A stretch of 64,000 nt of DNA from Zygnema cylindricum (Eukaryota > Streptophyta > Zygnematophyceae > Zygnematales > Zygnemataceae). Positions 1-60,166 of the stretch are shown here, one piece after another; the first letter of the stretch is position 1, and each line of letters begins with the position of its first letter. The notes under the pieces were generated by a model that worked only from the letters and a program-made list of their open reading frames with translations, made no database searches and had not been told where the DNA came from. The stretch is from contig JBBHKE010002205.1 in the NCBI GenBank assembly GCA_037447655.1, positions 62,001 to 126,000 on the forward strand, in the 5' to 3' direction. Both the position numbers and the translations under genes were made by a program.

Positions 1-1123
1 ACTGAAGGCTTGAAAATGCAAGAGAATGTTTCAGCACCCAGGAAATTGCATTTAAATCCATGCTTTGTCCGATTAAACTGCACCTTTTTGAAGCCGATAC
101 CCCTGGCGCAGCTGTGGTTCCCTGTTGAAACCCCATTGCTTGTTCCCGTTCTGTAATATTCGGCGCTGTCCACGTGGCGGTTGTACTGTCAAAGATCATT
201 CCTGGTGCGCCCTTCCGGTAAGCGTGGCTATTAGGAAAAGATACCAGAGTTGGGAGGGCCCTCCGTGGATACCCAGGCTTATTACAACAGAAGAAGGGTG
301 CTTTGTCGGCTGTGATCACCGGTGTGGCCATTCGCCCCGGTCCGAGGATCTGTTGGATCGTGATGTTGGGATCTGTAACCTGTGATCTCAACAGCTGTTG
401 GAGGATTGAAAGAGGAACCAAGTTGGTCCAATATGCCCGAACTCTGTGGGCTCTCGATCCGATCTGAGCTGCATCAAAAACTATGGGAGTCCCTAGAACC
501 TTGGTCAATTGGTTCCAGCTGTTGACCACCTGTTTTCTCTTATCATCTGTGGGGTGAACGTTTTCCAAGACGTACCCCACTGGTGTGTCTTGGCGTTCCT
601 GTAACTCTGTTATTAGTCTGGTCATTTGAAAGAAAGTTCTGCTACGGACGTTCTGGTGTCCTCGGCCCTGTCCTGCTAACGAATACCCCTGGCATGGCCA
701 TCCAGCGACCACAAGGTCTACCCTTTCGAGCTTTTCCAGATGGGACTTCGTGATATTATCCACATTCTGGGGAAGCGTGCGATGAGAGTTAGACATGGCG
801 GACACCGGGAGTTGCTGTGGGTAAAGTTGGTGCAACTGTTGCAGGCGGTACTCACAGACTGCACAGGCGGCCGGGTCTATCTCGACTGCCGAGTAAGTTT
901 CTATTTGGTATCCAGCTTTCAGGACGGCTTCCTGATCGGAACTAATGCCAAAAAATAGGGATAGAATCCTAAGTCTTGAAAGCGGGATTTGTATTGACAC
1001 CACTTGTCGATTAAAGTCTTTCCCTTTGTTAGGAACCGTTGGAAGTTCTGACCGGGGGACTTTTGCTGCTCCGGGTGATATTGCAGCCAAGCTTCTGTCC
1101 ACTTCCCGCCGAATTGTGGCCAT
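1..1123 (-). CDS. DNMT3-like cytosine-5 DNA methyltransferase domain of Gypsy-1 (partial, runs off window)
   Basis: Open for about 374 codons from an ATG at 1123 to base 1 with no stop. The MTase motifs appear in order. Motif I is LSLFFGISSDQEAVLKAG (about 920-975). Motif II is YSAVEIDPAA. Motif IV, with the catalytic cysteine, is DLVVAGWPCQGYSLAG (about 670-715). Motif VI is GYVLENV (about 555-575). Motif VIII is AAQIGSRAHRVRAYWTNL (about 420-470). Then come a target-recognition-like stretch, TEREQAMGF (about 130-155) and a motif X-like IGQSMDLNAISWVL. The C-terminal arrangement (RVRAYWTN, EREQAMGF) is closest to DNMT3. By family knowledge it methylates cytosine C5 using S-adenosylmethionine. 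Oddities are Phe where motif I usually has Asp/Ser (LFFG) and PCQ instead of the DNMT3 PCN. It is in the same frame as the upstream protease but separated from it by three stop codons (between 1139 and 1180). Confidence 0.85.
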   Translation of the reverse strand, partial: MATIRREVDRSLAAISPGAAKVPRSELPTVPNKGKDFNRQVVSIQIPLSRLRILSLFFGISSDQEAVLKAGYQIETYSAVEIDPAACAVCEYRLQQLHQLYPQQLPVSAMSNSHRTLPQNVDNITKSHLEKLERVDLVVAGWPCQGYSLAGQGRGHQNVRSRTFFQMTRLITELQERQDTPVGYVLENVHPTDDKRKQVVNSWNQLTKVLGTPIVFDAAQIGSRAHRVRAYWTNLVPLSILQQLLRSQVTDPNITIQQILGPGRMATPVITADKAPFFCCNKPGYPRRALPTLVSFPNSHAYRKGAPGMIFDSTTATWTAPNITEREQAMGFQQGTTAAPGVSASKRCSLIGQSMDLNAISWVLKHSLAFSSLQ

Positions 1124-1177
1124 CTGTACCAATCGGTTCTAATACTCTTTTTCCCACCGCTTGGAAATAGGGAATTA

Positions 1178-2086
1178 CTAGATAGAATCAGCGATATTGT
1201 TAGAGCATTTGAATAGCTCCGAGGGGGTTGAGGCAGAGTAGATGGGATAGCATCCAGACACCGGAACAGTCGTTTTTCCCCGGTTCCACAAATCCAAGGG
1301 GACCACCACTTTTGTTCCTTCCGGATCCTCAAGGTCTGAGACTGTAACTTGTTCCTTCCATACGCTCAACTCCATGTTCAACCTTGTCCACGTAGCCATA
1401 CCCAGCAAAATTTCAAATTGCTTACCTTCCAGCACTAGGAAGGGAAGCCGAATCTGCACGTGCTGGCCTGCGTCGTCAGCAAATTCGATATCCATGGCTT
1501 TTATGATCCCATATACTGGTTGGCTGCTACTGCTGACTGTGCTCAAGCATATGTTACTTGGACTGATTTTTGGCCGGAGTTCCTCGGGCATTTGTTGTAA
1601 CGCTGATGTAGTTATTAAGTTTGGAAGAGCTCCGGTATCCACCACTGCATCCTGGTACCCGCCGTATCCATTAAGTTTAAAATTTCCCGTCCTGTTGAGA
1701 ATAAAAGCCACCGAAAGGGCCTTATAATCCCTATCTGCCATAGAGGTATTTCGTTCTGCCGACATGAAGACTGTCTTGGGCAGTTCTGCCAGCGCGACCC
1801 TTTTCCTCCTAGTGTGAATTTCTTCCCCTAATGCCTTAATGAGGGTTTTTTCGGGCAAATTGTGGGAGGAAGCCAGCGTTTTGACATGCGTCAAGGCGTA
1901 GGGCATTAAGTGTCGTACTAGCATAACTGCCGGTTTGGAGGAAGAAGGGAGAGCTTTGGGCGATGAAATGGGTGAGTCCTCATCTTCCAATTTCTCCTGT
2001 TCCACCCCCCTTGCTTCCTCAATTTCTGGGTTAGAATTCCCCGTCGAAGGTGTAATTGGCGGATCTGTGGACGGTCTCTCAGCCAT
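1178..2086 (-). CDS. Retropepsin-like aspartic protease region of Gypsy-1 polyprotein
   Basis: A frame of 302 codons that stays open upstream of its first ATG. The active site is DAVVDTGALPNLIT (Asp-Thr-Gly-Ala) near residue 148. About 85 residues later come a hydrophobic strand and ILLGMATWTRLNMEL, the usual ILG-type second motif of retroviral-type proteases. The family cleaves the Gag-Pol precursor inside the particle. The first 120 residues are polar and probably linker. The frame ends at a stop at 1178-1180, and the methyltransferase continues in the same frame after two further stops. So PR and MTase may once have formed one polyprotein, or may be joined by readthrough. Confidence 0.75.
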   Translation of the reverse strand: MAERPSTDPPITPSTGNSNPEIEEARGVEQEKLEDEDSPISSPKALPSSSKPAVMLVRHLMPYALTHVKTLASSHNLPEKTLIKALGEEIHTRRKRVALAELPKTVFMSAERNTSMADRDYKALSVAFILNRTGNFKLNGYGGYQDAVVDTGALPNLITTSALQQMPEELRPKISPSNICLSTVSSSSQPVYGIIKAMDIEFADDAGQHVQIRLPFLVLEGKQFEILLGMATWTRLNMELSVWKEQVTVSDLEDPEGTKVVVPLDLWNRGKTTVPVSGCYPIYSASTPSELFKCSNNIADSI

Positions 2087-2159
2087 GTATCTGTCGAACC
2101 ACTCCTGATCTGTTTCAGTGGTTGAAGTGTTTTCTTTTGGCTGTGTCTTCTTGTAATCT

Positions 2160-2381
2160 TCAAAACCGGGAGGAAGTTTTTTTTGAAGCCGGAGAAGGCG
2201 GGTTAGTCGGCTTCAGTCCTAGTCCAATGTTACTGTTTAGAAGGACTGCTCGCGAGGTAAAGGATATGGGGCTGGTGGCTTTGGGACTGTGGTCCTTTTG
2301 TTCAATCTGTTGTTTGTCTTTTCTTTGGGATGACGTTGTAGAGCGCAGTTGGCTGCGACTGTCCCCTACACAACGTTCCAT
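2160..2381 (-). CDS. Gag-protease linker fragment of Gypsy-1
   Basis: A short lysine/serine-rich frame of 73 codons between the second zinc knuckle and the protease. It has no recognisable domain. It is listed because it bridges two coding blocks in the right order and strand. The neighbouring reading frame, open into the protease block up to about 2155, is an equally good candidate for the true linker, so a frameshift in this interval is likely. Confidence 0.3.
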   Translation of the reverse strand: MERCVGDSRSQLRSTTSSQRKDKQQIEQKDHSPKATSPISFTSRAVLLNSNIGLGLKPTNPPSPASKKTSSRF

Positions 2382-2506
2382 GCTCCGGACAGAAATGTCC
2401 TAGCATGCTGAGCCTTTGGAGGCTCCATATCCCAACCCATCAGGTCATCGTCATCTCCACCCAACATGGTCTGCTGCTCCAGCTCCGCTAGCTTTTGTAG
2501 CAGTTC

Positions 2507-2911
2507 TTATTTTTGTTTCTGCAGTTTATGAGCCGGCGTAAGAGGTTGAGGAGTGCGGGCAGAGGATCTCAGTCGGAGAGCGGCCAGTTCTGTTGCCAAA
2601 GCAACCAACTCAGTGCTTTTTTGCTGAATGATCTGTTCCGGTGTTAGTCTACTGGGGCTCGGTTCATTTGGAGATCGTCCCCAGAGATACATAAGTTGCA
2701 GCGGCAGAGGATTAACGGCAGTTTCCCCTTCGCTTGTAAACAAAGCATATTGCATCATCTCCTTCGGAACCCCATTTTTCTGAAAGCATTGCCCTTCTTT
2801 GTGGCCCATGAACCCACAAGCTTCACATTTTGACCCTTCAGAAGTATACTTCCCCCTTAGCTCATTAGAAATTTGAGCGTCATGGAATTTCGGAAGTCGG
2901 ATTTGTCTCAA
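2507..2911 (-). CDS. Gag nucleocapsid part with second CCHC knuckle (Gypsy-1)
   Basis: A frame of 134 codons containing CEACGFMGHKEGQC, a perfect CX2CX4HX4C zinc knuckle at residues 29-42. After it comes a polar stretch with a leucine/alanine-rich heptad-like segment (ELVALATELAALRLR) that could form a coiled coil. Knuckles of this kind bind the element's RNA during packaging. It lies between the first knuckle (3074-3424) and the protease, as expected for the gag C-terminus. Confidence 0.65.
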   Translation of the reverse strand: MRQIRLPKFHDAQISNELRGKYTSEGSKCEACGFMGHKEGQCFQKNGVPKEMMQYALFTSEGETAVNPLPLQLMYLWGRSPNEPSPSRLTPEQIIQQKSTELVALATELAALRLRSSARTPQPLTPAHKLQKQK

Positions 2912-3073
2912 CTAGGATTGAGACATTTTGGCGGTTTCAGAGGGTGGAGTAGGTTTATAGGTTTCCTTAGTGACCGGGGTTCGGTCTCCTCCTCCGCTTC
3001 CTTAATTGTGTTCTTGCTGTTTCCTTGTTCTTTCCGCACGCTCCCTCTCAAACTCCTTCTGCTTGATTGCGAG

Positions 3074-3424
3074 TTATGGTTTGAGCTTTCGGGGGCACCT
3101 CTTCCATCCGTGAACGGGCTGGTTACAGTTCAGGCAGTCGTAAAGAAAAACTTTTTCATCTCCTCCCATTGCAGGTTCTGGTCGGGCATCCGCTTCCTGT
3201 TTCCTCTTAAGCTTCCGCAAAGCTTGCAGTTCTGTCTGTTCGTCTTGGCTGAGCGATGTTTCCCCGGCGAAACTTGCAAAGTTGGCTCTGGATTTCCCGG
3301 TAATAGCCTTTTCTCGTGCCTCGCTATTAACAAAATGATCATACAATTTCATAGCAGCCAATGAAATTTCTTGAGCTGTGGGATTCCGATCGTGTATAGC
3401 TTGACTGGCACTCCAATTGTCCAA
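3074..3424 (-). CDS. Gag C-terminal part with first CCHC knuckle (Gypsy-1)
   Basis: A frame of 116 codons overlapping the 3' end of the capsid frame by 76 bp in another phase, so a frameshift (mutational or programmed) separates them. It is rich in Ala, Glu and Lys, with a charged helix (QDEQTELQALRKLKRKQEAD). It ends in CLNCNQPVHGWKRC, a CX2CX4HX4C knuckle. With the knuckle at about 2810 this gag carries two, matching the two-knuckle gag of Gypsy-2 at 51743-51943. Confidence 0.65.
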   Translation of the reverse strand: MDNWSASQAIHDRNPTAQEISLAAMKLYDHFVNSEAREKAITGKSRANFASFAGETSLSQDEQTELQALRKLKRKQEADARPEPAMGGDEKVFLYDCLNCNQPVHGWKRCPRKLKP

Positions 3425-4071
3425 AGCTGCCTGTCCCGTTGGCCCGAAGGAATTTCGAATAGCGACAAATATTTGGTGGCCATAGCCGGTGTATCGATGG
3501 TGGACACTTTGGTCTTCTCGCAGAGGCTGGAGAGGCGGTTGAACACTGTCTGGGGAGTTTCATTCTTCAAACAGCGGAAGTCTGTGAACTCCTTGATGGC
3601 ATTTTCGTTTCTTTCTGTGTAAAGGAGTCTCCAAGCGTCCAGAAGAGTGGTACAGGGATTAGGATTGGCAACCATCCGGGTGGCCGCTTCGGCTGCCTGT
3701 ACAGCCTGAAGGTGGTTGACATAGGCTCTGCCTTGGGCCTGAAGTTTCATATCCATGTTGAAATTGGGGGTGAGAGGATCTGCGGCTGCGGCAGCCAGGT
3801 CGGCTGCTGCCTGAAGAGCCTCGGCGTCCAGAGCCGGATCCAATATTTTGATACTGGGGGCCATCAACAAAGGTTGACGCTCCTTGTAATCGGCCAAAGC
3901 TCCGGCTAGATAATTTACCATCATCAGAAACAGGGTTGTTTCAAAATCTGCTGGAATGGCCCCTCCCCTGTATTTGTTGATTTCAGATTGGGTGAACGAC
4001 TTCCACAGCAGTTCAAAATCACAGAAAGCGATTACCGAGCTATCTCCTGTAAAGATCCTTACGTCCCCCAT
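3349..4071 (-). CDS. Gag capsid-like domain (Gypsy-1)
   Basis: A frame of 240 codons. The middle (about residues 120-200) has retrotransposon-gag character: WRLLYTERNENAIKEF, then FRCLKNETPQTVFNRLSSL, the helix-rich region where a short ORF2-like element limits a chain of amphipathic helices. An alanine-rich helix (AEALQAAADLAAAAAD) precedes it. Capsid proteins build the virus-like particle in which reverse transcription takes place. The frame is open upstream of its ATG for about 25 more codons, and an in-frame stop then separates it from the disordered extension at 4558-5724. Confidence 0.65.
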   Translation of the reverse strand: MGDVRIFTGDSSVIAFCDFELLWKSFTQSEINKYRGGAIPADFETTLFLMMVNYLAGALADYKERQPLLMAPSIKILDPALDAEALQAAADLAAAAADPLTPNFNMDMKLQAQGRAYVNHLQAVQAAEAATRMVANPNPCTTLLDAWRLLYTERNENAIKEFTDFRCLKNETPQTVFNRLSSLCEKTKVSTIDTPAMATKYLSLFEIPSGQRDRQLWTIGVPVKLYTIGIPQLKKFHWLL

Positions 4072-4557
4072 TTCTTTTTCCTCCTCTGCAAGGTTGGTGA
4101 ACTGTGAAGAAGATGGTCCGGTTGGGCTAACAAACTAAACCGGTGGAATTACCCCTGGATCTGCGTCGTTTGGCGCGGGCTCGCCTCCTTCTCCGGTAGA
4201 GGGAGCGGTCTGACGAGAGATGGTTCTCCCCCCCACTGAGGAAGTTCAGGTTACTGGTGGGATAGTGAGATGACCAGTATCTCCCTGGAGTTGGCCCTTG
4301 GGAAACGAAGAGCTTATCACCTTGGGAAAAGCTACCCGAAGTCTTGCTCCTCTATACCCAGGAGAGGCCCGTTCCTCCCGGTGAAATGTTTCCACCGAGG
4401 GAATGTGGAAAATAGGTTTAGTCACCGGTGGTCCTTGAGGGATTGGTGGAGAAGGGGATGGAGATGACCGAGGACTAAGAGGGAAAGGTGTCTGTCTCCG
4501 TGTACGCCTTTTGGAGGTTTCTGGTGGAGGAGTTCCTTTGCTGGAACCGGGAGAACG

Positions 4558-5724
4558 TCAGTGAGGAGGAGAGTAGGCAGGAACGTCGTACTTGTAGGGT
4601 AAGACGGGTGGTCCCGGTGACCCACGGACTGCAGCGGCCAGAGAAACAGAAGGCAAAGGAGAGGATGCCTGAGGTGGCGATGGAGGAGGAGTATTAAGTC
4701 CGAGGGAAATGTGTAGTCTCCGGTCTGGTTGTAGCTGCACCACGGCCTCCACGGTAGAAGATCCCTCAACCGAGACAATTGTAGGGAGATTTGTAGCCAC
4801 GACTACCGAATTACTCGGCAAATCTTCACCCAACCCCTTTTTGTTAGGCCCTGTTGTTTCCTCCCCTTCCCGCTGAAGAGGAGTTTCTGGTCTCGGTTTT
4901 GGTGAAGTCAGGGGATCTCGCGTGACAGGGGGAGTTGCCTGATCCAGAGGTTGTAATTCCGTCGCGAGACTTGTTCTACGGGGAGGTGCTACCTGTCCAC
5001 TAAGGATTCCCCAAGATCTCCGTCTAGCCTTCCGTATCAGGATCAGCTCCTGTTCTAATGCTCTCTTCCTTTCCTCTTCAAGGGCATCCCAATCTATTGC
5101 GACGGGTCCGACCCCCGCCGTAGCCTTATCCTGCGATCGTAGAATCTCAACCAATTTCTTGGTGCTGCTCACCACACCTGAGAGATCGGCAATCCCCAAA
5201 CCGGGTACCTCGGGGTCCGTAGGCCTTGAACGCCATAGTCTTTCGGATGGTCGGACAACTGGTGCGGAAGGAGACATAGAACTTGGGGAAATTGAGGCAG
5301 AAGGAAAGAACGGCTCTTCTTTGACTAGGGGAGCAAATCGACCTTTGCTGTCCCGATGGTTGAACCGGAAATCTCTCTTAGGCTGAGGTAACTTCCGCTT
5401 GCTACTCTCTTCCTTGGTCCGGCCCCGAGAAGTTGCTCTGCCCCTAGAAGGTCTATTGGTAGCAGTTTCTTGAGATATGGTGGGCTGTTGTCGTGAAGTA
5501 GACGGCATCTCCGGTTGCTCTCGGACCGAGATGGGAGAGCCACTTTCGGACGAGCTACTCAGGATCTCCACTACTCCTCCCACTGGGCGTATGATCCGAG
5601 CTCGGTCGCTTCTGGCAACACGCTGCACCAGCTCCTTCTTTACCTTCAATTCATGGATATTGTGAAGGGCTAGAATCTCCTTACGACCGCGTCGGTTAGG
5701 ATCAGACAAAAGTTCAGGATCCAT
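4558..5724 (-). CDS. Disordered Ser/Pro/Arg-rich N-terminal gag extension (Gypsy-1)
   Basis: A frame of 388 codons in the direction of gag and upstream of the capsid. No catalytic motif is seen. Composition is strongly disordered: long Ser/Pro/Arg/Thr stretches, repeated SRGR-type basic words, and a basic segment near residue 110 suited to nucleic-acid or nuclear-import contacts. The clean length argues that it is coding and not a shadow. It is unusually long for a Gypsy gag leader. Function unknown. Confidence 0.55.
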   Translation of the reverse strand: MDPELLSDPNRRGRKEILALHNIHELKVKKELVQRVARSDRARIIRPVGGVVEILSSSSESGSPISVREQPEMPSTSRQQPTISQETATNRPSRGRATSRGRTKEESSKRKLPQPKRDFRFNHRDSKGRFAPLVKEEPFFPSASISPSSMSPSAPVVRPSERLWRSRPTDPEVPGLGIADLSGVVSSTKKLVEILRSQDKATAGVGPVAIDWDALEEERKRALEQELILIRKARRRSWGILSGQVAPPRRTSLATELQPLDQATPPVTRDPLTSPKPRPETPLQREGEETTGPNKKGLGEDLPSNSVVVATNLPTIVSVEGSSTVEAVVQLQPDRRLHISLGLNTPPPSPPQASSPLPSVSLAAAVRGSPGPPVLPYKYDVPAYSPPH

Positions 5725-5735
5725 GTATGTCTCAA

Positions 5736-6071
5736 CTATCGGACTTTGGATCTGGTATAACGTACCACCTCGAGAGGGTGGCCTGGGACCGCTTCCTTAT
5801 GTGCCAACCCCTTTCTACGACTTTTAGGAGAAAGGGGCGGCCTCTCCGCCCTCTCCGCTGCCCAAGCTCGGGCTGATTCGGACAGAGTTGGAAAGTTCTC
5901 GGGGGAAAAAACAGGTGGAGGTGGAGGAGAGGGTCGCCTCTCTGGCTGCGTTGGAGGAGTTTCGATTGCAACCTCCGGAGGCATCTCTCCCCTAAGAAAT
6001 CGCTCTATGTGTAAAGGTGAGCCAAAGGGGGGTGCTTCCTCAGGCATCTGAGACTCTTCCTCTTGGGCCAC
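5736..6071 (-). CDS. Acidic/proline-rich first frame of Gypsy-1
   Basis: A frame of 111 codons starting MAQEEESQMPEEAPP, with a polyproline run (RRPSPPPPPVF) and a basic C-terminus. It ends 12 bp before the ATG of the 388-codon frame, with only a stop between, so both probably formed one disordered N-terminus. No homologous domain recognised. Confidence 0.4.
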   Translation of the reverse strand: MAQEEESQMPEEAPPFGSPLHIERFLRGEMPPEVAIETPPTQPERRPSPPPPPVFSPENFPTLSESARAWAAERAERPPLSPKSRRKGLAHKEAVPGHPLEVVRYTRSKVR

Positions 6072-6439
6072 CGCTTTCTGCCTCTCCTGCTCTTCCTATC
6101 TGACACCCGGAAGATCCTTATCCTGAACTTCTCCTCCCCCCATAGCTGACTGGAGAAGAAGATCTAAATCCCCTTTTAAAAGTACTCCGATCTGAGCACC
6201 TATCCTCTTTAACCTAAACAGACAGGTGGCTTTTTCAGTTCTGTGCACTCCGCTGGAAGCCCACGAAATGCCACACTCCCAGCTACTCTCCAAAGAATAG
6301 GAAAGAAATGAGAGTCGTCCGATCCTTTCCGCAAAACTCCGGACAAACCCAAAGATGACCACAAGAGTGTGCAAATAACTCCCACGCAGAAATATAGAAA
6401 TAACAAATATTGGCTTTTCAGATTAAACAATATCACCTT

Positions 6440-7489
6440 GCCCTAGAGAATGGAATGAAAGATAGAAATGAATGATAATGATGAAGCGAATTCACATACC
6501 CCGGAGTGCAACGATGACCAAACTCAGCACAAGAAAACCTATCCCAATGGCCCCGAAGTCAGGCATGAGTCTCCCTCAACCCTCCCGGTTCCACCGCAAG
6601 GATCCGACAAGACTCTTCTTAGTTTCAAACAGCGAAAGTCCAAACCGCCCAAAGAGAAGATAGTGACCACTACCCACGCGTGCTACGATCTCCACAAAAG
6701 ATAATCCAAAACAAAGATGGCAATAGAGTCAACGACACAATGCAACCGTTCTCCAACAGAAAGATTGATTTTAATTCTCTGGGGATTTTCTCAGGAGACA
6801 GTACTAAAAAAGCAACCTGTCTCCTTCGGCCCCAAATGCCTTATACAACCAGAGTTTGTCCTACTGCAAGTTCCAAAGTCAAAGCAATGTGACAAGCCAA
6901 TCATCGGCCAGCAATTGTTATCGTACTGACATAAGACAAAACAGACTGTACTACACTCAGGACTAAAAGTTAGACGACCGGTCTCGGCTAGATTAGCGGC
7001 CGAGGGTCCTCCTATAATACACAAAATGGAAACAAAGTGTTGACTTGACGTGAAACCGTCGAACTTTGACCCAAAGTCATTAATGCTTGGCCCGGCGGTT
7101 GGGCCTAAACTAACATCCTACTGACAGCTAACAGTAAGATCTACGGGATAATCCCAAATGTTACGTGTCGTTTTTTAAGGTATCCCTCTACTACAGCTAC
7201 AAAGAACACACACTATAATGGAGCAGACAATTTGCACCGGACTAACTCCTCAGTTCGACCTGCGTTTAAGGTGAACTAAATTGCGTAGTGTTCCAGGATG
7301 AAAATATAAAGATGTGATCCGGCTGATCGTCCTCTTCCTTCTCCGTACGCTAGAGTCCGTACAAAGTGGAATGAAGCCCCGGACCTCCTGGGAGTGCAAA
7401 TGTGCCGAAGATGCACACGCGTTTGACATTCTTCCCTTTTTTCTCAGGTTAACTCCTTCTTAATAGAATTTCAACTTCGGGTTGTTCCT
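6440..7489 (-). other. Unresolved leader/LTR zone of Gypsy-1
   Basis: About 1 kb between the first Gypsy-1 frame and the truncated Copia A. If Gypsy-1 is complete at its 5' side, this should hold its 5' LTR and primer site. I could not find a paired LTR, a clear primer-binding site or an LTR terminus, because the partner LTR is outside the window. The small frames here are not convincing genes. Confidence 0.35.
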
Positions 7490-15156: not shown

Positions 15157-16364
15157 TGAAATTCTATGGGCTCCATTTCCACACAAAATTCGCAGGTCCA
15201 AAATAGCTAATCTAGATAGTGCCGACTCCAAGTTTATATAAACCCAAATGTTTGACCCCCTTACAATCAAAACCCCATTACAACTTCACCCTTGTGAAAT
15301 ACGAATTTTTGTGTGCTCAGTTCCACCACAGAATGCAAAGTTAGAATATGAGTTTTGGAAAACATTCCCCACTTTGACTTTCCCTTAGAAATGCAGCCAC
15401 CCTGGCAGGCAAACACACTGACCGACTACACTTATGTGTAGCCTAGACTCCCTTGAGTCCGCAGCAAAAAGAATCATTGAATTTGGTCAACTGAGTTGAT
15501 AGTTATGGCTGCTTAAAGTTAGCCTTTTAAACAAGGTGCTCTCTGGGAGAGGCGGCTATCTACCCAAAATATTCTAAGTCTTAAACCCCTTTCTAAACCC
15601 CTTAGTACTGAAATATCGACCAGGCGACTATCTACCCAAAATATTCTAAGTCTTAAACCCCTCTCTAAACCCCTTAGTACTGAAATATCGACCAATCACA
15701 GGACTGTACTGTACAGGAAGTACAGGTGCCGGAGTAGTTTATGTACGGACATTGTATGACACAACCATAATGTGACATTTGTTACATCCAAATTTGTTGT
15801 CTTCCGTTCCGGAGATTGCGTAAACCCGTATGATATTGCCACGTGTCATCCGGAGTGGCGACGTTCGCAAACCGTCAAATTTCACTTTCTGCGAAGCAGA
15901 CGCTAACCATGGCCGTCCAATTAGATTGCCTTCTAAAGTAAGCCGTTGAAATAAATGTTCGCACCATTTATTTTGTGCGGTTCAATAGTTTTTGACACGT
16001 TCCATGTTACATTGTACTTTCGTTAGTTAAATGAAATGTCCTAAGTCTAATTGTTTAAATACTTATCATACCCTATATACTCTAGCAGAATTCCTAGACT
16101 ATAGGATAACGTTGCCGGCTACCGGCTATTTTGATAGACTGTAGGTACCAGGAACAAATCCTAGGTCGTCAATCCCCTTTTGGTAAATCTATTAGAAACT
16201 ACTCTTGTCTCTCTAGAAAGCTTGGGCAGCCATGGCTTTAGCTCCATATCCAGCCTTTAGTGACTACAATAAGTGTGAAGGCTTTGATAAGGAGTTAGAG
16301 GCAGACTTCCTTTGTTCTTTTCTATCCTAACACAGACCTAGAAAATACTTAAATTTTTTCAACA
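15157..16364 (-). repeat. 5' LTR of Copia B1
   Basis: Right-hand copy of the 12006-13134 LTR, with the same termini. It is about 80 bp longer through a local duplication near 15540-15690. A tRNA-like block is at about 16092-16172. Confidence 0.9.
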
Positions 16365-16900
16365 AGGGACAGGGAAATGAAAAGGGAGAGGGAGGGGAAA
16401 GATGTTTTGCCAGGGGCTGCTCCCGTCTGTGGTTTGAATGGTAAAGGGAGTGAGATAAGGGGGGGAAGAGGGAGAGAGAGACGCAGTGGGAGAGGGAGAG
16501 TGGAGAGAGTAGAGGGAGTCGGGAGTTAAGATAGTGCAGGAAATGGAGAGGGGGGACGGTAAAAAGAGTGGAGAGGGTGGAAGAGTGGAGAAAGAGGAAG
16601 TGAGAATAGAGGAAGTGGTGAGGGGAGAAAAGAGTAGAGAGAGAGAGGAGAAATTGGGGAGAGTGGAGAAAGTGGAGACAGTGGAAAGTGAAAAAAAAAA
16701 AAAAAGTCAGGACCGGAGGGGTGGGGAGGTTGGAAGGGAAAGTGGGAGAGAAAATGGCGAGCTCGTTAAAATAAAAAAAAAGGGTTGTCAAGGGTTTAAA
16801 TAATTAAAAAAAACCCTGTCTCTCTCCCCCTATAGTCTTCGTGGGAGGGAAGCAAAGGAAGGGAAAAGAGGGGGGAGGGAGGTTGAAAAAAAAGTATGAT
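16365..16900. repeat. Purine-rich (GA) low-complexity tract
   Basis: Almost pure A/G on the plus strand (GGGAGA, AGAGGG, GAGTGGAG words) continuing the repeat into which B1 inserted. Opposite-strand frames here are Ser/Leu/Phe-rich artefacts of the pyrimidine strand. Confidence 0.9.
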
Positions 16901-17855
16901 TTTTCACAAGTACATCGTGAATCGCTATTACGGTTAAACAATAGTTCAAACTCGAAATAATACAAAGAGATACTCAATAGAACAAAAAAACAATAACCAT
17001 GGATTCAAAAACACAAGTAAAATTCAAACAAATCCAGCATGTTTTCTTATACGTTTCTAAAATTTCCCCATTCGTAGTTTCAAAATTTATAGTGGAAGCG
17101 ATGTTCCGTTTTGAACGTATTTTCTTAATTTTATTGGTTTTATGTCCACTCTCAACTTTAGTATCAATAACGAAAACAAAACTTTTAGTGGTTGTTGTGA
17201 GAACCGGTCGTTTGAACTGTTAGAACAATAACATAGTAAGAGAATATTTAGAATTAATAAAACATTGGTGCAAAGAAAACATCATTTGTCTCCGTTTCTC
17301 ATAGGGGCATTGTTATGTTTTGAAGTGGAAATGAATAAAATTGGATTTTGTGAGATTCAATCACACAAAGTTAAATTTTCCAATTGTCAAATCCTCTGAG
17401 GTAGCTGCCTTAAAGGGAATGATCTTCCGAGAGCTGTGGATGGCTAGGTATCTAAAGCTACTGTTTTTTTATGTTTTCATATTACATTTTGGATAAAAAA
17501 AATAAAAAATGCAGTGTGGAATTTTTTCAGGGTTTGCATTTTTCACAATATTAAAAAATGATCGTTCAACCTTCTTTGACAATATCTGGTGTCTAATTTT
17601 ATCAAAATCATAGAAAAAAATGACAAAAAAATAGTGAAGAAACCAATAAATATAAAAATGAAAAAAATAACCATCGCCATCAGATGAAGATTCATCGGTG
17701 AAACATACGCCTAAAAAAGGGTCAAATATGCTCCAAACTTGGTGCCAAACTATCTAGCGTTAATCATGTTATTCCCAACATATATGTAGTTTGTTTTTGA
17801 TGCATCTATGGTCTAAATGTGATTTTTTTTTTGCAGAAAAACAAGAGTGTTTTTT
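16901..17855. other. AT-rich stretch, possible upstream part of receptor-kinase remnant
   Basis: No firm gene. A 74-codon frame at 16999-17223 has a hydrophobic segment (FLILLVLCPLSTLVSIT) that could be a signal peptide. At about 17385-17450 there is a frame reading SSEVAALKGMIFRELW, reminiscent of the start of LRR receptor-kinase ectodomains (xxAALKALK). Both lie upstream of kinase exons in the same direction, but the link is only suggestive. Confidence 0.25.
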
Positions 17856-17860
17856 TACCA

Positions 17861-19688: not shown

Positions 19689-19698
19689 NNNNNNNNNN
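19689..19698. other. Assembly gap (10 N)
   Basis: Ten N bases at the end of the purine tract; the true repeat length is unknown. Confidence 0.99.
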
Positions 19699-25005: not shown

Positions 25006-25070
25006 TGAAAGGAAATATGTTAGATTTCCTAGAAATCTGGGATTCGGCATGTCCCACACTTGGGAAAATT

Positions 25071-31441: not shown

Positions 31442-31454
31442 TTGGAAGATTAAG

Positions 31455-50864: not shown

Positions 50865-50953
50865 CCGGCCCATCCTCCCCTTTTCAACATGGCTTCCCCT
50901 TCAGTGGGATCCATGGGTAGGATGTAATTTGCTTTTCCGGATTAAAGGACACC

Positions 50954-51730
50954 ATGTCTTTATCGCATTTCCATATTTTATACGACACGGAAATGAGGGA
51001 TTTAGCATTTAGATATCAGGATAGGTTTGACCTCCGTGTCGCTTTTTCCCTTCTCAGTCGATACCTCCGTGGTACGGCCCTCACTCTTTACACTCGTAAG
51101 TACGAGGATGTTCTTGCGATGATAAAGTACCTGGCTCCCTTTGCGGGGTTACCAAAAGTCCTCAGCCAAGTGGATATCCGATATCAGGCTGTGAGACCGG
51201 CGGTATTGGATGCTAATGGGAACGAGTTGTATCCAGCTATCTCCGAGGTCCCTCGTTTGTATGCAATGGTTGCCCGAGTCGCGGTCCTAGCTAGAGCGGG
51301 GAGAACCATTCCCTTACGTGACCCTCTCTCCTTCAATTTTGACATCATCGAAGAGGAGTACTGGATGCAAAATCCGGATCAGAACAAAGAGTTGATGAAC
51401 TTCGAGCGTAGGCCAGGTGAAACTGCTCATGCCTTGCGAGCTCGGATGGAAACTCTGCGGGAGGCATTATCGGACCTCATCTCTAAAGCAGAGGCTGTCC
51501 AAAAATTTGTGGGACAGTTTCTAGGTCCATCAAAGAGGTTTATCCAAAACCACCTCAGCCAGATGTATGGACTGGAATTCACCTTTGAGCAAGCCACTCA
51601 ATACGCGGTAGAGTATGAGATGCAGACATCGTGGTGGGACACCCATGAGCGTTCCAAAACTCCTCACAGAGAACAGGTTAATCCATCTCCTCCTCCACCT
51701 AAAAACCCATGGCCTCCTAATAGGCCCTAG
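50954..51730 (+). CDS. Gag capsid-like protein (Gypsy-2)
   Basis: A frame of 258 codons, ATG start. Helical throughout, with gag-like phrases: YQDRFDLRVAFSLLSRYLRG, YWMQNPDQNKELMNFERRPG, ETAHALRARMETLREALSDL (the E-ahx-x-R segment where gag helices limit a chain), FVGQFLGPSKRFIQNHLSQM and FEQATQYAVEYEMQ. A Pro-rich tail follows. It is intact from start to stop, and the zinc-knuckle frame begins 13 bp further on. Confidence 0.65.
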   Translation: MSLSHFHILYDTEMRDLAFRYQDRFDLRVAFSLLSRYLRGTALTLYTRKYEDVLAMIKYLAPFAGLPKVLSQVDIRYQAVRPAVLDANGNELYPAISEVPRLYAMVARVAVLARAGRTIPLRDPLSFNFDIIEEEYWMQNPDQNKELMNFERRPGETAHALRARMETLREALSDLISKAEAVQKFVGQFLGPSKRFIQNHLSQMYGLEFTFEQATQYAVEYEMQTSWWDTHERSKTPHREQVNPSPPPPKNPWPPNRP

Positions 51731-51742
51731 AAGACACAAGCC

Positions 51743-51943
51743 ATGGGAACTCCACTTGTTAGTCCCAGAAACAGTATGTGTTTCGGATGTGAAAAAACCG
51801 GGCAAGATGCCCGCATGTGTCCTGACAAGGCAGCCACTTGCACTCATTGCCACCAAAAGGGACATAATGTCCATCAATGCCACATCAAAGACCCTAATTT
51901 CACTTATCAAAATCAGATAAAAAACGACGGAATTCGGGCCTAA
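51743..51943 (+). CDS. Gag double zinc knuckle (Gypsy-2)
   Basis: Two knuckles in tandem: CFGCEKTGQDARMC, where the His is Gln, and CTHCHQKGHNVHQC, a full CX2CX4HX4C. The nucleocapsid role is binding of the element's RNA. It is in a different phase from the capsid frame. Confidence 0.75.
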   Translation: MGTPLVSPRNSMCFGCEKTGQDARMCPDKAATCTHCHQKGHNVHQCHIKDPNFTYQNQIKNDGIRA

Positions 51944-52366: not shown

Positions 52367-52559
52367 TTAAGCATTCTTTCAACAATGTTGGAGGATGTAC
52401 GGAAAGCCCTTCCCCTCGTTGATGAGGTTGGAGCAGCAACTGCTTTGAGGGCTCTGTAGTTAAACCGTAGTCTTTCAGCGGTTCAATCGGTTACTACGGA
52501 AGACTCGTAATCTCGATCCCCATATCAGTTTCCTTGATAACTCTCGTGGATCATTCTCA

Positions 52560-52895
52560 GTGAACGGTGTTCACCCCACTCTTCCTCTCATAGACACCGC
52601 GGCCAAACCTGTGATCCTTGGATCCGGATTTGCGCTCAAGCTTGGTCTGATAGCAGATAAGCTTCAAGCGACCTCTACCCGCCTTCTAACTTCGACTGGG
52701 ACCACGGAGCTCGTCCTCGGAATCACAAAGGACCCGCTCATCTTTTGGTTTCAGACGGGAACCGAAAATAAGTGCGTTGAAATTGCCGTCAGAGCATTGG
52801 TCACTAAATGTGACGACTATGAGTGTTTGGTGGGCCAAGACATTATATTCCGAATTGGCAGTGGCATAGACATGCACGACCAAACATTTTCTTAG
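52560..52895 (+). pseudogene. Retropepsin-like protease with changed active site (Gypsy-2)
   Basis: Reads TLPLIDTAAKPVILGSGFAL, corresponding to a DTGA motif with Gly replaced by Ala. After about 75 residues, DYECLVGQDIIFRIGSGIDM corresponds to the family's second hydrophobic-(L/V)G motif. The Gly loss probably impairs activity. Confidence 0.6.
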
Positions 52896-53155
52896 TGACC
52901 GACACACTTTCCAGAGCGCAAAATCTGCCTCCCTCTCATTTCAGCTCGCCGACCTTTGCCCACTATGGCTCACTCGACTACGGCTCTTCCCGCATTTTTA
53001 GGAAACTCCATTAGGGAGGAAATTTTCCACTCTCTTACGACCGAAGAAATTATACGGAATAGTTCCACGTTACCCGAGCTCTAGTAAAACTGGGTTTTCT
53101 TATCAATTCTCACACATTTGACAGTATTTATAAGTCCACATTATCTATTCCATTA

Positions 53156-53707
53156 ATGCGTATCCCTCCTATACCTACAGTGGCAAACGATCCTTTGGGT
53201 TTCCTCCCAATCAGTAGGAAGCCAGTACAGCTTAGTCTTCATACAGACGGGGTCGTTATTTTAGATCTATTCGCTGGGATTGGAACTTCACTATTGTCAT
53301 GTTTACGGAATGGTCTCCTCAGCCGTCACTACTATGTAGTAGAAATTGATGCAATAGCTAGAAAAGAACAAGTGCACCACTTTAATCTCCTACACTCACA
53401 GTATCCACAGTTGTTTCCAAAGTTAGCCTTTCTACACATGCACACTACTCTTCCACAAGACATCCGCATCCTTAGTAATCATCATCTACAGGATGTCGAA
53501 CCAATATACCTTGTTTCAGAGGGTGGGAGTGTCAAGGCATGTCTCGGGCCGGCAAAGATCTTGATTTGGCGGATCCGCGTACCAATTTTTTTTTTTGAGC
53601 TTTTCAGGGTCTTTCATTTTCTTCAAACCATTGCCAAACCTGTCGGATACATTTTAGAGAACGTCTTCTCTTACTATTATCCTCGGCCAACAGTTCTGGC
53701 TGACTAT
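53156..53707 (+). pseudogene. DNMT3-like cytosine methyltransferase fragment (Gypsy-2)
   Basis: Motif I is ILDLFAGIGTSLLSCLRNG, close to consensus. Then come YYVVEIDAIARKEQ (motif II) and TLPQDIRILSNHHLQDVEPI. Around 53518-53595 the main frame loses sense, but another phase reads GWECQGMSRAG then DLADPRTNFFF. This is motif IV with PCQ changed to ECQ, followed by the DNMT3-style RTNFFFELFRVFHFLQ. The main phase resumes through an 11-T run at 53586-53596 and continues to GYILENVF (motif VI). The frame is then cut by the Copia D LTR, so motifs VIII-X are missing. It is therefore inactive. The T run could also be a sequencing problem. Confidence 0.8.
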
Positions 53708-54770
53708 TGAAACTTTGAGACCTCTATAAGTCCTCAGAATGGACATCTTCCAAGAAGCCTCTAGGATAACCCTGACCCCTTTGTGTTTTAGCAAAAAAAC
53801 TGCCACCCTGGCAAACAAAAACTCTGACCACCTTCACCCCTGTGAATGCAAGACTCCCCTGAGTTGATAGCAAAAGAATCTGTGAATTTGCTCCCTTGAG
53901 CAGTAAGTTATGGAGGGTCAATGTTGACCTTTTGTACAGAAGCTCTCAAGGAGAGAGTGTCCTATCTACTAATTTTTCTAAGTCATATCTCTCTCACAGA
54001 CTCTATCTACTGATGTACGGAGCCAATCATATTACATTTCTGTACACAAAAGTACAAGTGTCGGTGTACTTTATGTACGGAAACAGTACGACATGCCCTA
54101 ATTGTCCACACGTGGTATATACGGATTTGGTTCCTTAATCCTCGGAGATGCCGCGATCCAATGTTATTATGCCATCTGTCATCCGATGTGGCGATGACCA
54201 AAAACCGCCGAAATCCTCTTCCGCGATCTTGGCATTCATTCCGGCCGTCCGATTAAATGCACATTTAATCGTAGCCGTAATAAATACTTGCGCGGTATTC
54301 GTTTCGCTATTGAAACAAATGCGCGGTACATGTTTCTTGTCAGTACCTTGATTTGTAATTTTACATTCATGGATTTATGTATCCCGTAAACAGTTTCAGT
54401 TGAATGAATTATCCTACATGGTAATGTTTAACTAATTATCATTCCAAATAGCATGTATCACTAGTTTTAGACTTAACGGATAAGGCTACCAGTTACCGGC
54501 CTTACCGTTCGGCAAGTTCCAAGATCAAATCCTGGATGCAACATATATCCTTTTAGTAAATAAACCCCTAACGGTAAATAAACTAATATATTTCCCGTAA
54601 ACCTCTGGAGAGCCTAGGTAGCCATGGCTCTAGCTTCCTCTCCAATTTCTCAGTGACCGCGACAAGTTTGAGAGTGGGGGAGTGAAGTTAGAGATAGACT
54701 GCCTCGGTATCTTTCTATATTTCTATTTAGACCTAGAAAATACTTAAAAAACGGACCTTTAATTTCTACA
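53708..54770 (-). repeat. 3' LTR of Copia D
   Basis: Minus-strand TGTAGAAATTAAAGG ... CA. Polypurine complement (CTCCCTTTATTTTCTAG) follows. A tRNA-like block is at about 54466-54538. Confidence 0.9.
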
Positions 54771-54783
54771 CTCCCTTTATTTT

Positions 54784-55433
54784 CTAGTCAATCTTTAATT
54801 TCAGACCACACTTCTCCCTGCAGAAAATTAGCTTAAGGGAAGGCACAAGTTTGGTCATCATATCTGCTACCATCTCACTATCTAGTCGGTACACTAAACT
54901 GATTATTTTGTTTTCTACTTTCTCTCTAACAAAGCTGAGTCTAATGTCCATGTGTTTGGCTTTAAAATGGTGTTTAGGATTGGCAGAAATAGCGATTGCT
55001 GCCTGATTATCACAAAAAATTTTATGCACACCACTCTTAAGGTGACCAAGCTTACCAAGCAAAGACTAGACCCACATCAATTCTTTTACAGCAGAACAAG
55101 AGGCCATATACTCAGCCTCTATGGTGGACGGAGCAATAACTTTTTGATGTTTGCTACACAACAGCAAGCCCCATCACCCACATATAATACATATCCAGAA
55201 GTAGATCTCCTCATCGGAGCACCACCATAACTAACATCACTCTAAGTAGGGATGTCAGTATTCTCCCCACCCAAATGCAACCATGGATCCCTAGTTCCTA
55301 TCGAATTTTTAAGGACTCTCTTAGTTGCCTCCCAATCCCTCTTAGTGGGAGCATTTAGACTTCTACTCAGCACTCCTACAGCTGCAGCTAAATCCGGCCG
55401 GGTACAATTCATAAAATAAATTACACTTCCCAC
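54784..55433 (-). pseudogene. RNase H (Copia D)
   Basis: Blocks 54784-55062 (GKLGHLKSGVHKIFCDNQAA, NPKHHFKAKHMDIRLSFVRE) and 55242-55433 (SVIYFMNCTRPDLAAAVGVL, the RT/RNase H connection). Between them the STMEAEYMAS region is in another phase. CDNQ is kept. The end of the frame lies by the polypurine tract. Confidence 0.8.
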
Positions 55434-55442
55434 TACTTGCTT

Positions 55443-56296
55443 CTAAGGAATAGTCTGCATGAACTTCTGTTCTTCAGGAGATGATTCCTTGTCTAAGACT
55501 ATGACTCCTTCTTCCTCACTCCCCTCACTTCCCTTTTTCAACTCCATTGGAGTTGTACAACTATTAGCTTTATCCATCTGAAATTTTTCAATCATGTTCC
55601 TTATTGCTTTCTTTTGAGTCAATCTTATAAGCTTTCTTTTTCGGTCTCTTTCTACTTGAATTACCAAAATATATTTTGCTTCCCCCATATCTTTCATTTC
55701 AAATCTCCCCTTAAGATCGGTTTTCAGCTTATTAATTTTTTCCATTGATTTACTTAAAACAAGCAAATCATCAAATAAATTGCAATAAATATAAAACCTT
55801 CCTCATCTTCAAAAACATAGATTGAGTGATCAGAGCTGATCCGGATACATCCCAGACCGGTAAGAAATTCATCAAGCTTCTTATTCCACTATCGAGGCGC
55901 CTGTTTCAAACCATAGAGAGATTTAATCAGCAGGCATACTTTACTCTCCTCTCCTTCCTCGACAAATCCTTCGGGTTGTCGCATGAAGATCTCCTCTTCC
56001 AATTCTCCATGGAAGAAGGCTGTCTTGATGTCCATCTGGTGGACCTCCATGTCTTGCGCTACTGCCAGAATGAGAAGTATGCGGACGAAGGGAAATCCGA
56101 CGACTAGGGCAAATGTTTCCTCGTAGTCAATTCCCTCCTTTTGTGTAAATCCCTTTGCCACTAATTGGGCCTTGTAACGCTCAATCGTGTTATCTAGGTT
56201 CAATTTTAATTTGAAAACACACTTACAACCGATTCGTTTTCGGTTAGGTGGACAATCCACCAGCTCCCAAGTATCGGCTGCCATAATTGAGGCCAT
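55443..56296 (-). pseudogene. Reverse transcriptase (Copia D)
   Basis: The N-part (55889-56296) reads [73 protein letters not shown]. The C-part (55443-55766) begins LVLSKSMEKINKLKTDLKGR, with GEAKYILVIQVERDR. The YxDD box between them (about 55765-55785) falls at a frame change. The catalytic Asp in MDIK is kept. Confidence 0.82.
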
Positions 56297-56299
56297 CTC

Positions 56300-57659
56300 C
56301 TCATTGATGGCTGTCTTCCATCAGTTCTTTTCTGGACAAGTTATCGTCTCTCAATAAGTCTGAGGTTCATCTTGATGAGATGGTTTTGTTTCCTTGTTAT
56401 TAACCTGTTTTTCTTGCAATCTTTTGCTACTTTTCCTTCCCCCCTCAAAATTTGAGGCCAGATTAGATGGTTCTCGTGGATTCTTTCAAACAACCTCGAC
56501 TTCTCCCCTGTCCCTTGATTTCGAATCAATTTCCACCACGTCTTCCGCTTCGGGTAGAGTTGTCAATGGAGTTTCCACAGCTGAGTCCTTTTCGGTCTGA
56601 TTCGTACCCGCAAGAATGTCATCTTCTCTAAAACCTGGATAGTTAGAAAGCTCAAAGTCATCGGAATTTTCTGACTCAAATCTGATTTTTACTGACTTTG
56701 TATATTTGAAGGGATCCACAGACTTTCCTTCATCCATAACTACTACATGTTTTACTAAGATTATATCTTCCCTTTTTAGATCATAAACTCTATATCCTTT
56801 AACATCCTAATCATATCAAAACAAGTATCCCGGTTTTCCTTTAGGATCTAGCTTCCATTTAGACCGATCTGCATCTAGACTGAATACTTGACTGCCGAAA
56901 ACCTTTAAGTGAGATATGTCTGAATTCCGGCCTGTCCATCTCTCATAAGGTGTTTGATCTTTTATAGTTGAAGTAAGAACTCTATTTTTGAGGTAATTAG
57001 CAAAGTTCATTGCTTTTGCCCAAAACCTTTTTCCTATCTTTTTATCTGACAACATACTTCTAGCACTATCACTTAGTGTTCAATTTAACCTTTCAGCTAC
57101 CCCATTCTGTTCCGGGTTTTCTGGAACTGTCTTTTGGTGTTAGACTCTATCTTCCCTCAGAAAATCCTCAAACTGGTTAGAAGTATACTCTCCACCATTG
57201 TCACTCTTTACTCTCTTAATTGGAGTTTCATGGAGTTTTTCGCTCCATGCTTTATATTGTCTAAAAACAATCCTGAGTTTCTGACTTGTTTTTCAAAAAA
57301 TACACCCGGGAATACCGAGACCAATCATCAGTGATAGTCATCATAAATCTCTTCCCCCCGGTGAGGGCACTTTAGCGGGTCCCCAAATATCTGTGTCTAC
57401 TAGATCTAGAATTATTTTCTCCCTTATAGGTGGTTGTTCTGGGAAAGGGTAATCTGTGTGCTTTACCTTGAGCACATCCACTACAACCACTTATATTATC
57501 ACTCTGACTGAACTGAATCCCTTCCACCACTCCCATCTTTTTCATCTCTCTTAACTTATCTAGATTCACATGCCCAAGCCTCTTATGCCACATCATAATA
57601 TCATGAACACCACCATAATAAAGTTTTTTTGTTTCATTACTTAAAATCAGCCTGAGCAT
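56300..57659 (-). pseudogene. Integrase (Copia D)
   Basis: 57372-57659 gives the zinc-binding start: MMWHKRLGHVNLDKLREMKK and CSGCAQGKAHRLPFPR (HHCC). The DDE core (57060-57370) is broken into phases. 56816-57055 gives KRFWAKAMNFANYLKNRVLT, TPYERWTGRNSDISHLKVFG, and 56486-56737 an acidic Ser/Thr linker towards RT. Confidence 0.78.
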
Positions 57660-57779
57660 CCCTTGGCTACCTTTCTCAGCAATGAAATAGACCTCCTCCT
57701 CAAAATTAGCTGTAAAGACTCCTTCCCTAGTGCTACTGAAAAAATCCTTATCATCTAATACAGATGAAGAGATGAGGTT

Positions 57780-58030
57780 TTTGATCAGCTCCGGAATAAA
57801 AATACATCGAAGAATGTTACTATATATGTCTTTTCTTCTACTAGCACTTTCAGATCTACCGATCCTTCAAGAGTATTAGTGACTATCCTACCATCCTTGT
57901 ACTCTATCTATTTGGTGGGAATCTTTCTTATCTTAGTAAACAGGTGCTTATCCTTACACATATGGATGGAGGCACCTAAATCTATAATCCAGCCCGCTTC
58001 ACCTTTAAATCCACCGTAAGCACATTTCTG
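57780..58030 (-). pseudogene. Protease (Copia D), DSG changed to DLG
   Basis: The minus strand reads GWIIDLGASIHMCKDKHLFT (about 57945-58000). Copia proteases have DSGAS; here Ser is Leu, while the catalytic Asp stays. It follows the zinc knuckle after a one-base frame change at about 57985. Confidence 0.7.
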
Positions 58031-59102
58031 CCTTTGGGAATTTCGACCTCGTTTTTCGCCTCCAACTCCTCATCCAATAGGAGCTCATCGTCCTCGTCCT
58101 CGGATTCTGCCTCATGCACCTGTGTCACAAGGGCATTTTTCTTTCCTCTCGGGGTTCCACCGGTCTGCCCCTCCTTTAACCGAAGCTCGGTTAGCTTAGT
58201 GCACTCCGCCATATAGTGCCCCAGTTTCTTACAAAAATGACATAAACCTTTGGGAGCCTTTGGTCCGAACTCGTCAGTCTGATTTTTCTGCTCCCTCCCC
58301 CTACAGTTTCCGACCGATCTTCGAGAATCCTTGTTCCTCTAATCGGTCGCAGCTACCAAGGCTTGGCAACTCTTTCCTCCCCTTCGGATCTCAATCGTAT
58401 TCTCCCAAACGAGAATCATCCCTACCACTGAGTTCCATATCCACCTTGAGTCCGGCAAGTCCTGCACACGGTTCAATATGTTTTCGAACTCATCGGGTAA
58501 CTTCATCATTAAACAGTTAACCTTTTCTTTTTCACTAAAATCTTTTCCCGCACTCTCTAGCTTCATGAAGAGTGTAGCAAGCTCATTGCAAAAATCCAAC
58601 ATTTTCCCCCCTTTGTATACATATTCCTTAACTTTATGATCAGCCAACTGATGTTGCTGAATCGTACCACTTCGGTACATCTCTATGAGAGTCATCCACA
58701 GATCGGATGCCCTTTCTACCTGCACATGAGGACATGCAAGTCCTTGAGTAAAATTGCGTAGGATGAAGTGCTTTGCCGCCATATTGTTGAAGTCCAAGGT
58801 TTAAGTATCTTTCTCCTCGTTCTTCGGAATAGGTGACATGAATGCTGAACCAGTTGCTATTGGTGTGGTCGTCTCCTTCTCCGCTCTTTTGTCCACCACC
58901 TCTCCTTCCTTTGTCTCCTCCGTTGAAGATGGACCTGCTTTCTTTGTGACTGGAGGGATTCGAAGACTTGATGGACGCCCCAATCGTCCACTCACTATCC
59001 CCAAAAACTTTTTTTTCGCATAGAGCTCATATCATTATACTTTCTCAGTATATGAAGCCAGTTCCATTAAAGATTGGTACCCTAGAGGATGGGCCCATAA
59101 CG
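57982..59102 (-). pseudogene. Gag with zinc knuckle (Copia D)
   Basis: Likely starts at the ATG in the primer site (about 59096): MGPSSRVPIFNGTGFIY then a stop. 58801-59004 is a Thr/Glu/Lys-rich linker. 58339-58797 is the UBN2 fold (DFNNMAAKHFILRNFTQGLA, ASDLWMTLIEMYRSGTIQQH, MLDFCNELATLFMKLESAGK, MKLPDEFENILNRVQDLPDS). Then comes the knuckle CHFCKKLGHYMAEC (about 58205-58245) and an acidic tail (57982-58212). Confidence 0.8.
59089..59102 (-). promoter_or_regulatory. Half-tRNA primer-binding site of Copia D
   Basis: The minus strand reads CGTTATGGGCCCAT after the LTR. It matches the anticodon-arm complement with a first-base change. The gag ATG lies inside. Confidence 0.75.
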
Positions 59103-60166
59103 TGAAACTTTCAGACCTCCATAACTCCTCAGAATGGACAGCTTCCAAAAAAAATTTAGGATAACCCTGACCCCTTTGTGTTTTAGAAAGAACAACTGCC
59201 ACCCTGGTAGACAAAAACTCTGACCACCTTCACCTTTGTGAAGGCAAGACTCCCGTGAGTTGATAGCAAAAAGAATCACTGACTTTGCTTCCTTGAGCAT
59301 CAAGTTATGGAGGGTCAAAATTGACCTTTTGTACAGAAGCTCTCTGGGAGAGAGGGTCCTATCTACTAATTTTTCTAAGTCCTATCTCTCTCACAGACTC
59401 TATTTACTGATGTACGGAGCGAATCATAGTACACTTCCGTACACAAAAGTACAGCTGCCGGTGTTCTTTATGTACGGACACTGTACGACATGCCCTTAAT
59501 GTCGACACGTTGTGTATACAGATTTGCTCCCTTAATCCTCAGCGATGTCGCGATCCAATGTTATTCTGCCACGTGTTATTCGATGTGGCGATGACCAAAA
59601 ACCGTCGCAATCCTTTTTCCGCAATCTCGGCATTCATTCTGGCCGTCCGATTAAATGCACATTTAATCGTAGCAGTAATAAATACCTGCGCAGTATTCGT
59701 TTCACTATTGAAACAAATGCGCGGTACATGTTTCTTGTCTGTACCTTGATTCGTACTTTTACATTCCTGGATTAATGTATCCCATAAACAGTTTCAGTTA
59801 AATGAATTATCTTACGTGGTAATGTTTAACTAAATATCAAACCAAATAGTATGTATCACTAGTTCTAGACTTAACGGATAAGGCTACCGGTTACCGGCCT
59901 TACCTTCCTGTAGGTACCAGGATCAAATCCTGGATGCAACATGTATCTTTTAGTAAATAAACCCATAACGGTAAATAATCTAATATATTTCCCGTAAACC
60001 TGTAGAGAGCCTAGGTAGCCTTGGCTCTAGCTTCCTCTCCAATTTCTCAGTGACTGCGACAAGTTTGAGAGTGAGAGAGAGAAGTTAGAGATAGACTGCC
60101 TTGGTATCTTTCTATATTTCTATTTAGACCTAGAAAACACTTAAAAACGTCCCATTAATTTTTACA
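59103..60166 (-). repeat. 5' LTR of Copia D
   Basis: Homologous over its whole length to 53708-54770 and to the solo LTR at 49175-50231. Confidence 0.9.
59864..59934 (+). other. tRNA-like block in Copia D 5' LTR (antisense to element)
   Basis: GACTTAACGGATAAGGC resembles the A box/D-arm of plant tRNA-Arg-like genes. TAGGTACCAGGATCAAATCC then CTGG resembles a T-arm (stem CCAGG/CCTGG, 7-base loop). The T-arm part differs from the plant initiator tRNA-Met T-arm at only three of 22 positions as I recall that tRNA. Confidence 0.55.

Follow-up and report, generated by a model that had tools for sequence, protein, structure and literature searches.

DNA methyltransferases of the DNMT3 type have been described inside retroelements before, and the closest system is KnitGypsy-Dnmt3 of Klebsormidium nitens, in which a DNMT3 lies within the Gypsy Pol open reading frame (de Mendoza et al. 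2018, PMC5890265); the precedent cited in the earlier note is a real one. The text of that paper names Klebsormidium and dinoflagellates as hosts of DNMT-bearing retroelements, and for KnitGypsy-Dnmt3 it reports repeats in a DIRS-like arrangement and gives no domain order. It also describes SymbioDIRS-Dnmt3 of Symbiodinium, a DIRS element with a tyrosine recombinase and a DNMT3-type methyltransferase in Pol, for which two domain orders coexist. The accessible text of a 2025 survey places DNMT3 in streptophyte and dinoflagellate retrotransposons and names LTR Copia and DIRS families (PMC12344493), and that of an account of methylation in Marchantia describes five host methyltransferases, none of them element-borne (PMC5784723). 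Subscription papers, supplements and figures aside, we found in the literature no description of DNMT-bearing retrotransposons in liverworts or Zygnematophyceae, and in the part searched none of land-plant hosts, of two fixed positions for the enzyme or of a Gag-side layout.

Here we analysed a 64-kb stretch of Zygnema cylindricum DNA (the window). Its bases 1-5796 very probably represent the 5' portion of the coding sequence of a decayed Ty3/Gypsy-type LTR retrotransposon, element 1, with a DNMT3-type methyltransferase (MTase) between protease (PR) and reverse transcriptase (RT). Its features, with motif coordinates computed from the sequence and a motif numbering that we take to be the usual one, are:

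2..1138, minus strand: C5-cytosine methyltransferase domain, DNMT3-type, supported by open frame, Pfam, fold and motifs
967-941, minus strand: MTase motif I
895-866, minus strand: MTase motif II
775-749, minus strand: MTase motif III
703-671, minus strand: MTase motif IV, GWPCQ
574-551, minus strand: MTase motif VI, ENV
457-419, minus strand: MTase motif VIII
151-128 and 70-44, minus strand: two C-terminal MTase motifs
1178..2212, minus strand: aspartic protease open reading frame, VVDTGA at 1645-1619, in the same frame as the MTase
2786..3136, minus strand: two CCHC zinc knuckles (3136-3095 and 2827-2786), frame broken by stops
3074..4134, minus strand: gag core in two frames (4134-3349 and 3559-3074), from open reading frames and a weak profile match
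4558..5796, minus strand: Pro/Ser/Arg-rich open reading frame of 412 codons, 5' of gag, no Pfam match

The minus-strand frame 1138..2 runs for 379 codons without a stop (about 374 by the earlier count) and leaves the window at base 1. In 40 simulations of 64 kb each, matched to bases 1-6200 in dinucleotide composition, the longest stop-free stretch reached at most 315 codons, with a mean of 223. Motifs I, II, IV (PCQ), VI (ENV) and VIII, which had been read from the letters, were all located, and motif III with them. An HMM search, one of the checks that had been proposed, returned Pfam DNA_methylase at E 7.7e-14 (bit score 52, cut-off 22), and human DNMT3A matched at E 8e-12. The closest solved folds to an AlphaFold model of the domain (pLDDT 91) are DNMT3A/3B. 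The alignment of this model to DNMT3A covers residues 52-377 of the 379, so that no part of the domain is missing from the window. The catalytic PC, ENV and RxR are present and the motifs run unpermuted, from I at 967 through the last at 44, as in the DNMT3 family. By sequence and predicted fold the enzyme is thus DNMT3-type, in keeping with the first reading. A DRM identity, which would entail permuted motifs (PMC6453930), was ruled out because the motifs are not rearranged.

The predicted fold is shared with animal and plant DNMT3 and DRM, and with DNMT3 the motif order is shared too. Compared with DNMT3A, the element 1 MTase reads PCQ rather than PCN at motif IV, has additional residues separating motif II from motif III and spans 326 residues against 280, and no companion chromatin domain was seen. 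The Asp of motif III, which 93% of 56 relatives keep, is Asn in element 1.

The earlier note had placed the MTase downstream of gag and protease on the same strand, and the VVDTGA motif, knuckles and gag do lie upstream of it, with weak profile matches for gag and PR. The PR frame is open over 344 codons; it scores below the Pfam cut-off (E 3.8e-4) and aligns with the PRs of relatives over ~120 residues (hhalign E 1e-4 in one comparison, probability 58%), and gag matches the gag of relatives weakly (hhalign E 0.0015, probability 17%). The Pro/Ser/Arg-rich frame at 4558-5796 is possibly an N-terminal gag extension. No other stop-free frame listed for the window is longer. PR and MTase share one frame with three stops separating them, among 12 stops in that frame from 3562 to 1141; one of the three might be a genuine ORF border, although P0038, the closest long relative, has no break between MTase and RT. 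The upstream stops, together with the frame change in gag, mark element 1 as a decayed copy, which is probably inactive as an element.

We found no Gypsy-type RT, RNase H or integrase in the 64-kb window: a phmmer search for those of L073, an apparently complete relative described below, gave no match at E up to 1, and tblastn with the RTs of three relatives (P0038, P0093 and P0101) gave a best E of 0.076, inside a Copia. For element 1, neither an LTR nor a primer-binding site was found in the window, where the sole initiator-Met-like primer-binding string lies at 25302 on the minus strand, away from element 1. The Gypsy-type label of the earlier note is thus suggested by the relatives, with RVT_1, RT_RNaseH, Integrase_H2C2 and rve among the Pfam domains of L073, and not by any Gypsy RT in the window. 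The RT-RNase H-integrase part of element 1 is expected a few hundred bases past base 1.

Searching the window with the element 1 MTase revealed a second MTase at 53111-53707 on the plus strand (E 4e-16, 29% identity), in the following setting:

50921..51730, plus strand: gag, hhalign E 6e-5, probability 65%, against the gag of relatives
51779..51880, plus strand: two CCHC zinc knuckles, from motif positions
52464..52892, plus strand: aspartic protease, 2.8e-16 to the L073 PR, below the Pfam cut-off
53063..53707, plus strand: decayed MTase, motifs I to VI, 4e-16 to element 1
53708..60166, minus strand: Copia element ending element 2, from repeats, with LTRs at about 53708-54770 and 59103-60166

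Bases 50921-53707 belong to another decayed element, element 2, from the same broad family, with gag, knuckles, PR and MTase in the same order as in element 1; that two elements this diverged share one order argues against chance adjacency. Its PCQ region (within 53479-53595) sits in a different frame and reads ECQ. Element 2 is truncated at 53708 by the LTR of the Copia, which contains a gag_pre-integrs domain at 57372-57863 and has no target-site duplication, its flanks being ACTAT (53703-53707) and GAGGA (60167-60171). The remainder of element 2 was not found beyond this insert, where the sequence past 60166 is another Copia (60167-62130) that lies in the opposite orientation and abuts the LTR end at 60166, again without a matching target duplication; the junction at 60166 suggests rearrangement. 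A solo LTR of the same Copia family as the interrupting copy lies at 49175-50231 on the plus strand, between 5-bp duplications CTAAG at 49170-49174 and 50232-50236.

Element 1 resembles KnitGypsy-Dnmt3 in having a DNMT3-type, unrearranged and intronless MTase in a Gypsy-type polyprotein of a green-lineage host (PMC5890265). In element 1 the MTase directly follows PR, and two diverged elements share one window. The suggestion of novelty made for this locus holds in part: the host and domain order of element 1 may be new, whereas a DNMT3 in Gypsy Pol had already been published. Element 1 may also be an ordinary member of the KnitGypsy-Dnmt3 kind, the domain order of KnitGypsy-Dnmt3 being given in a figure of that paper.

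Three protein searches gave 107 relatives, nine of them distant (P0035 and P0043-P0050). The named plant or algal hosts are the liverworts Marchantia polymorpha and Calypogeia fissa, and Closterium; no Klebsormidium-named protein was retrieved, though most relatives lack an organism name. The Marchantia, Calypogeia and Closterium predictions, annotated only as hypothetical or unnamed proteins, are polyproteins with PR-MTase or MTase-RT order and 34-42% identity to element 1 in the best segment. The Marchantia models join the MTase to gag and PR without a break, and in P0038, the closest long relative (51% identical to element 1), it runs straight into RT. The two nearest relatives that carry more than the MTase both continue into RT, which agrees with the PR-MTase order upstream of RT given in the earlier note, and PR-MTase is unbroken in one frame in L073 and P0041.

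L073 was the one close match (E 2e-72) among 73 loci from a scan of genome contigs, the rest being prokaryote-titled with E 2e-12 or weaker; a scan of viral contigs gave 72 loci whose best segments are 24-49% identical, with L042 aligning over residues 56-365 and the remainder over shorter stretches. L073 spans 9285 bases, and the 127 identical bases by which one end overlaps the other suggest that an LTR element was assembled as a circle. Its ORF1 encodes gag-knuckles-PR-MTase, and ORF2, in the same frame past a single TAG, encodes RT, RNase H, an H2C2 zinc finger, an rve integrase in place of the tyrosine recombinase of SymbioDIRS-Dnmt3 (PMC5890265), and a PHD finger. The C-terminal residues of P0037 are identical to those of L073 ORF1. 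The stop context, TAG CAA TCA at 3489-3497, fits what we take to be the tobamovirus-type leaky-stop consensus, UAG CAR YYA, which makes this UAG a possible candidate leaky stop; if so, the MTase would be made with Gag and in greater amount than RT. The PHD finger, 3' of the integrase in the C-terminal part of 3492-6635 and present also in four MTase-integrase relatives, could be a chromatin reader for target choice. L073 is titled as a contig of a cyanobacterial metagenome-assembled genome (MAG), yet reads as a eukaryotic retroelement, and P0052, from an Obscuribacterales MAG, may be another such case of misbinning.

Scanned with the L073 domains, 65 of the 107 relatives showed the MTase alone, one showed MTase-PHD and 41 had the MTase joined to PR, RT, RNase H (RH) or integrase (IN), in one of two positions that never occur together in one protein (0/107):

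Between PR and RT, 26/107: 16 PR-MTase, 6 MTase-RT, 3 MTase-RT-RH, 1 PR-MTase-RH-IN
Between RH and IN, 15/107: 2 RT-RH-MTase, 2 RH-MTase, 1 RH-MTase-IN, 10 MTase-IN (4 with PHD), these 10 inferred from the MTase beside integrase with RNase H not visible

Two domain orders thus coexist, as in SymbioDIRS-Dnmt3. On an MTase tree of 103 rows (five rows left out, 52 unlabelled rows uncounted; nine of ten loci from the viral and genome scans kept, L042 used in one tree), a single change separates 27 PR/RT-position rows, element 1 and L073 included, from the 15 RH/IN rows (SH-aLRT 98). Set against all other groups, bacteria and DNMT3A included, the PR/RT position needs two changes, so the trees do not order the two positions in age. 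In a fuller tree, a single group of 31 rows (support 84) contains all 15 RH/IN rows; its other 16 rows are unlabelled, and none is of the PR/RT position. Element 1 pairs there with P0038 (support 86). An RT tree of 12 rows shows the same split weakly (51/91).

Cytosine methylation is a main route of retrotransposon silencing in plants, so it is paradoxical for an element to supply a methyltransferase of its own. By analogy with described elements, self-methylation of cDNA seems the likeliest function of the enzyme, and our proposal that in intact members it methylates cytosines of fresh cDNA or of the integration site is a tentative one, a little short of an even chance. The element's PR would free the MTase within the particle, or the MTase would stay fused to RT; it would then methylate newly made cDNA or the integration site, and the outcome could be concealment from a host that recognises unmethylated DNA, or self-silencing, neither of which we prefer. 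Methylation of cDNA was proposed for DIRS elements by the authors who showed in yeast that two DNMT3 domains of SymbioDIRS methylate CG; the Klebsormidium domain was inactive there, a result that the text of their paper calls inconclusive, DNMT3B having failed too (PMC5890265).

We also asked whether self-methylation has left a trace in CpG content. Observed/expected CpG ratios are 0.67 for element 1 and 0.77 for element 2, with 0.81 across the whole window and 1.04 in 16000-33000; since MTase-free Copia stretches reach 0.55, 0.36 and 0.41 (another has 1.13), CpG loss gives self-methylation no support.

One reading of the whole pattern has three parts. First, a single DNMT3-type acquisition would have founded an old and widespread green-lineage Gypsy clade that counts liverworts, including Marchantia, among its carriers. 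Second, the enzyme would later have moved once within Pol, from PR-MTase-RT to RH-MTase-INT or the reverse. Third, in part of the clade, the MTase would be translated together with Gag, ahead of a leaky UAG, enter particles at Gag level and mark cDNA before integration. Taken jointly, these steps are possible, with the balance tilted slightly against all three holding together. Because its position is fixed in each of two sister groups, and because L073 may have a leaky stop, predictions can be made about the place and the amount of enzyme production, and the Marchantia relatives, in a host with easy genetics, would make it testable whether the enzyme hides the element, tames it or acts on the host.

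That last option, action in trans on host chromatin to silence competing elements or host loci in place of element cDNA, is unlikely: the PHD finger on the integrase side of some relatives would suit it as a possible chromatin reader, whereas residence in the polyprotein would favour action inside the particle. About equally unlikely is a bacterial or phage C5-methyltransferase as the source. The PCQ of motif IV, a Mesorhizobium relative (L074) that aligns over residues 56-368 at 25% and a phage MTase as the top viral fold match speak for it; against it, profile and fold both favour DNMT3, and the MTase tree separates the nine rows from bacteria and viruses, although DNMT3A is there a single long row of unsure place. 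We hold it quite improbable that the MTase is a passenger carried by descent with no function for the element. The MTase of element 2 has lost its reading frame and has ECQ for PCQ, and Copia elements in the same window do without one; yet across 59 aligned MTases two columns are invariant and 26 are conserved at >=90%, the PCQ Cys and ENV Glu included, the MTase and RT trees split alike (RT weakly), and the text of PMC5890265 reports purifying selection on KnitGypsy-Dnmt3. A host DNMT3 gene, or an element MTase domesticated by the host, lying beside retroelement debris by chance is very improbable and was rejected: the open MTase and PR frames with stops between and upstream would allow the MTase alone to have been kept, but it lies in the PR frame and adjoins the knuckles, element 2 repeats the order, and it is fused to other element domains in 41/107 relatives, the nearest longer two running into RT.

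Further features lie elsewhere in the window. No Rfam match reached the gathering threshold. A protein-kinase fragment lies at 18491-18958 and, like the Copia elements, is compatible with a green-plant host. At 25017-25532 a 231-nt sequence occurs twice, with 98% identity and 285 bp between the copies, both of which include a tRNA-Gln(CTG)-like sequence. At 33377-34972, a roughly 325-bp repeat is present in five tandem copies, 63-83% identical to the reference copy.
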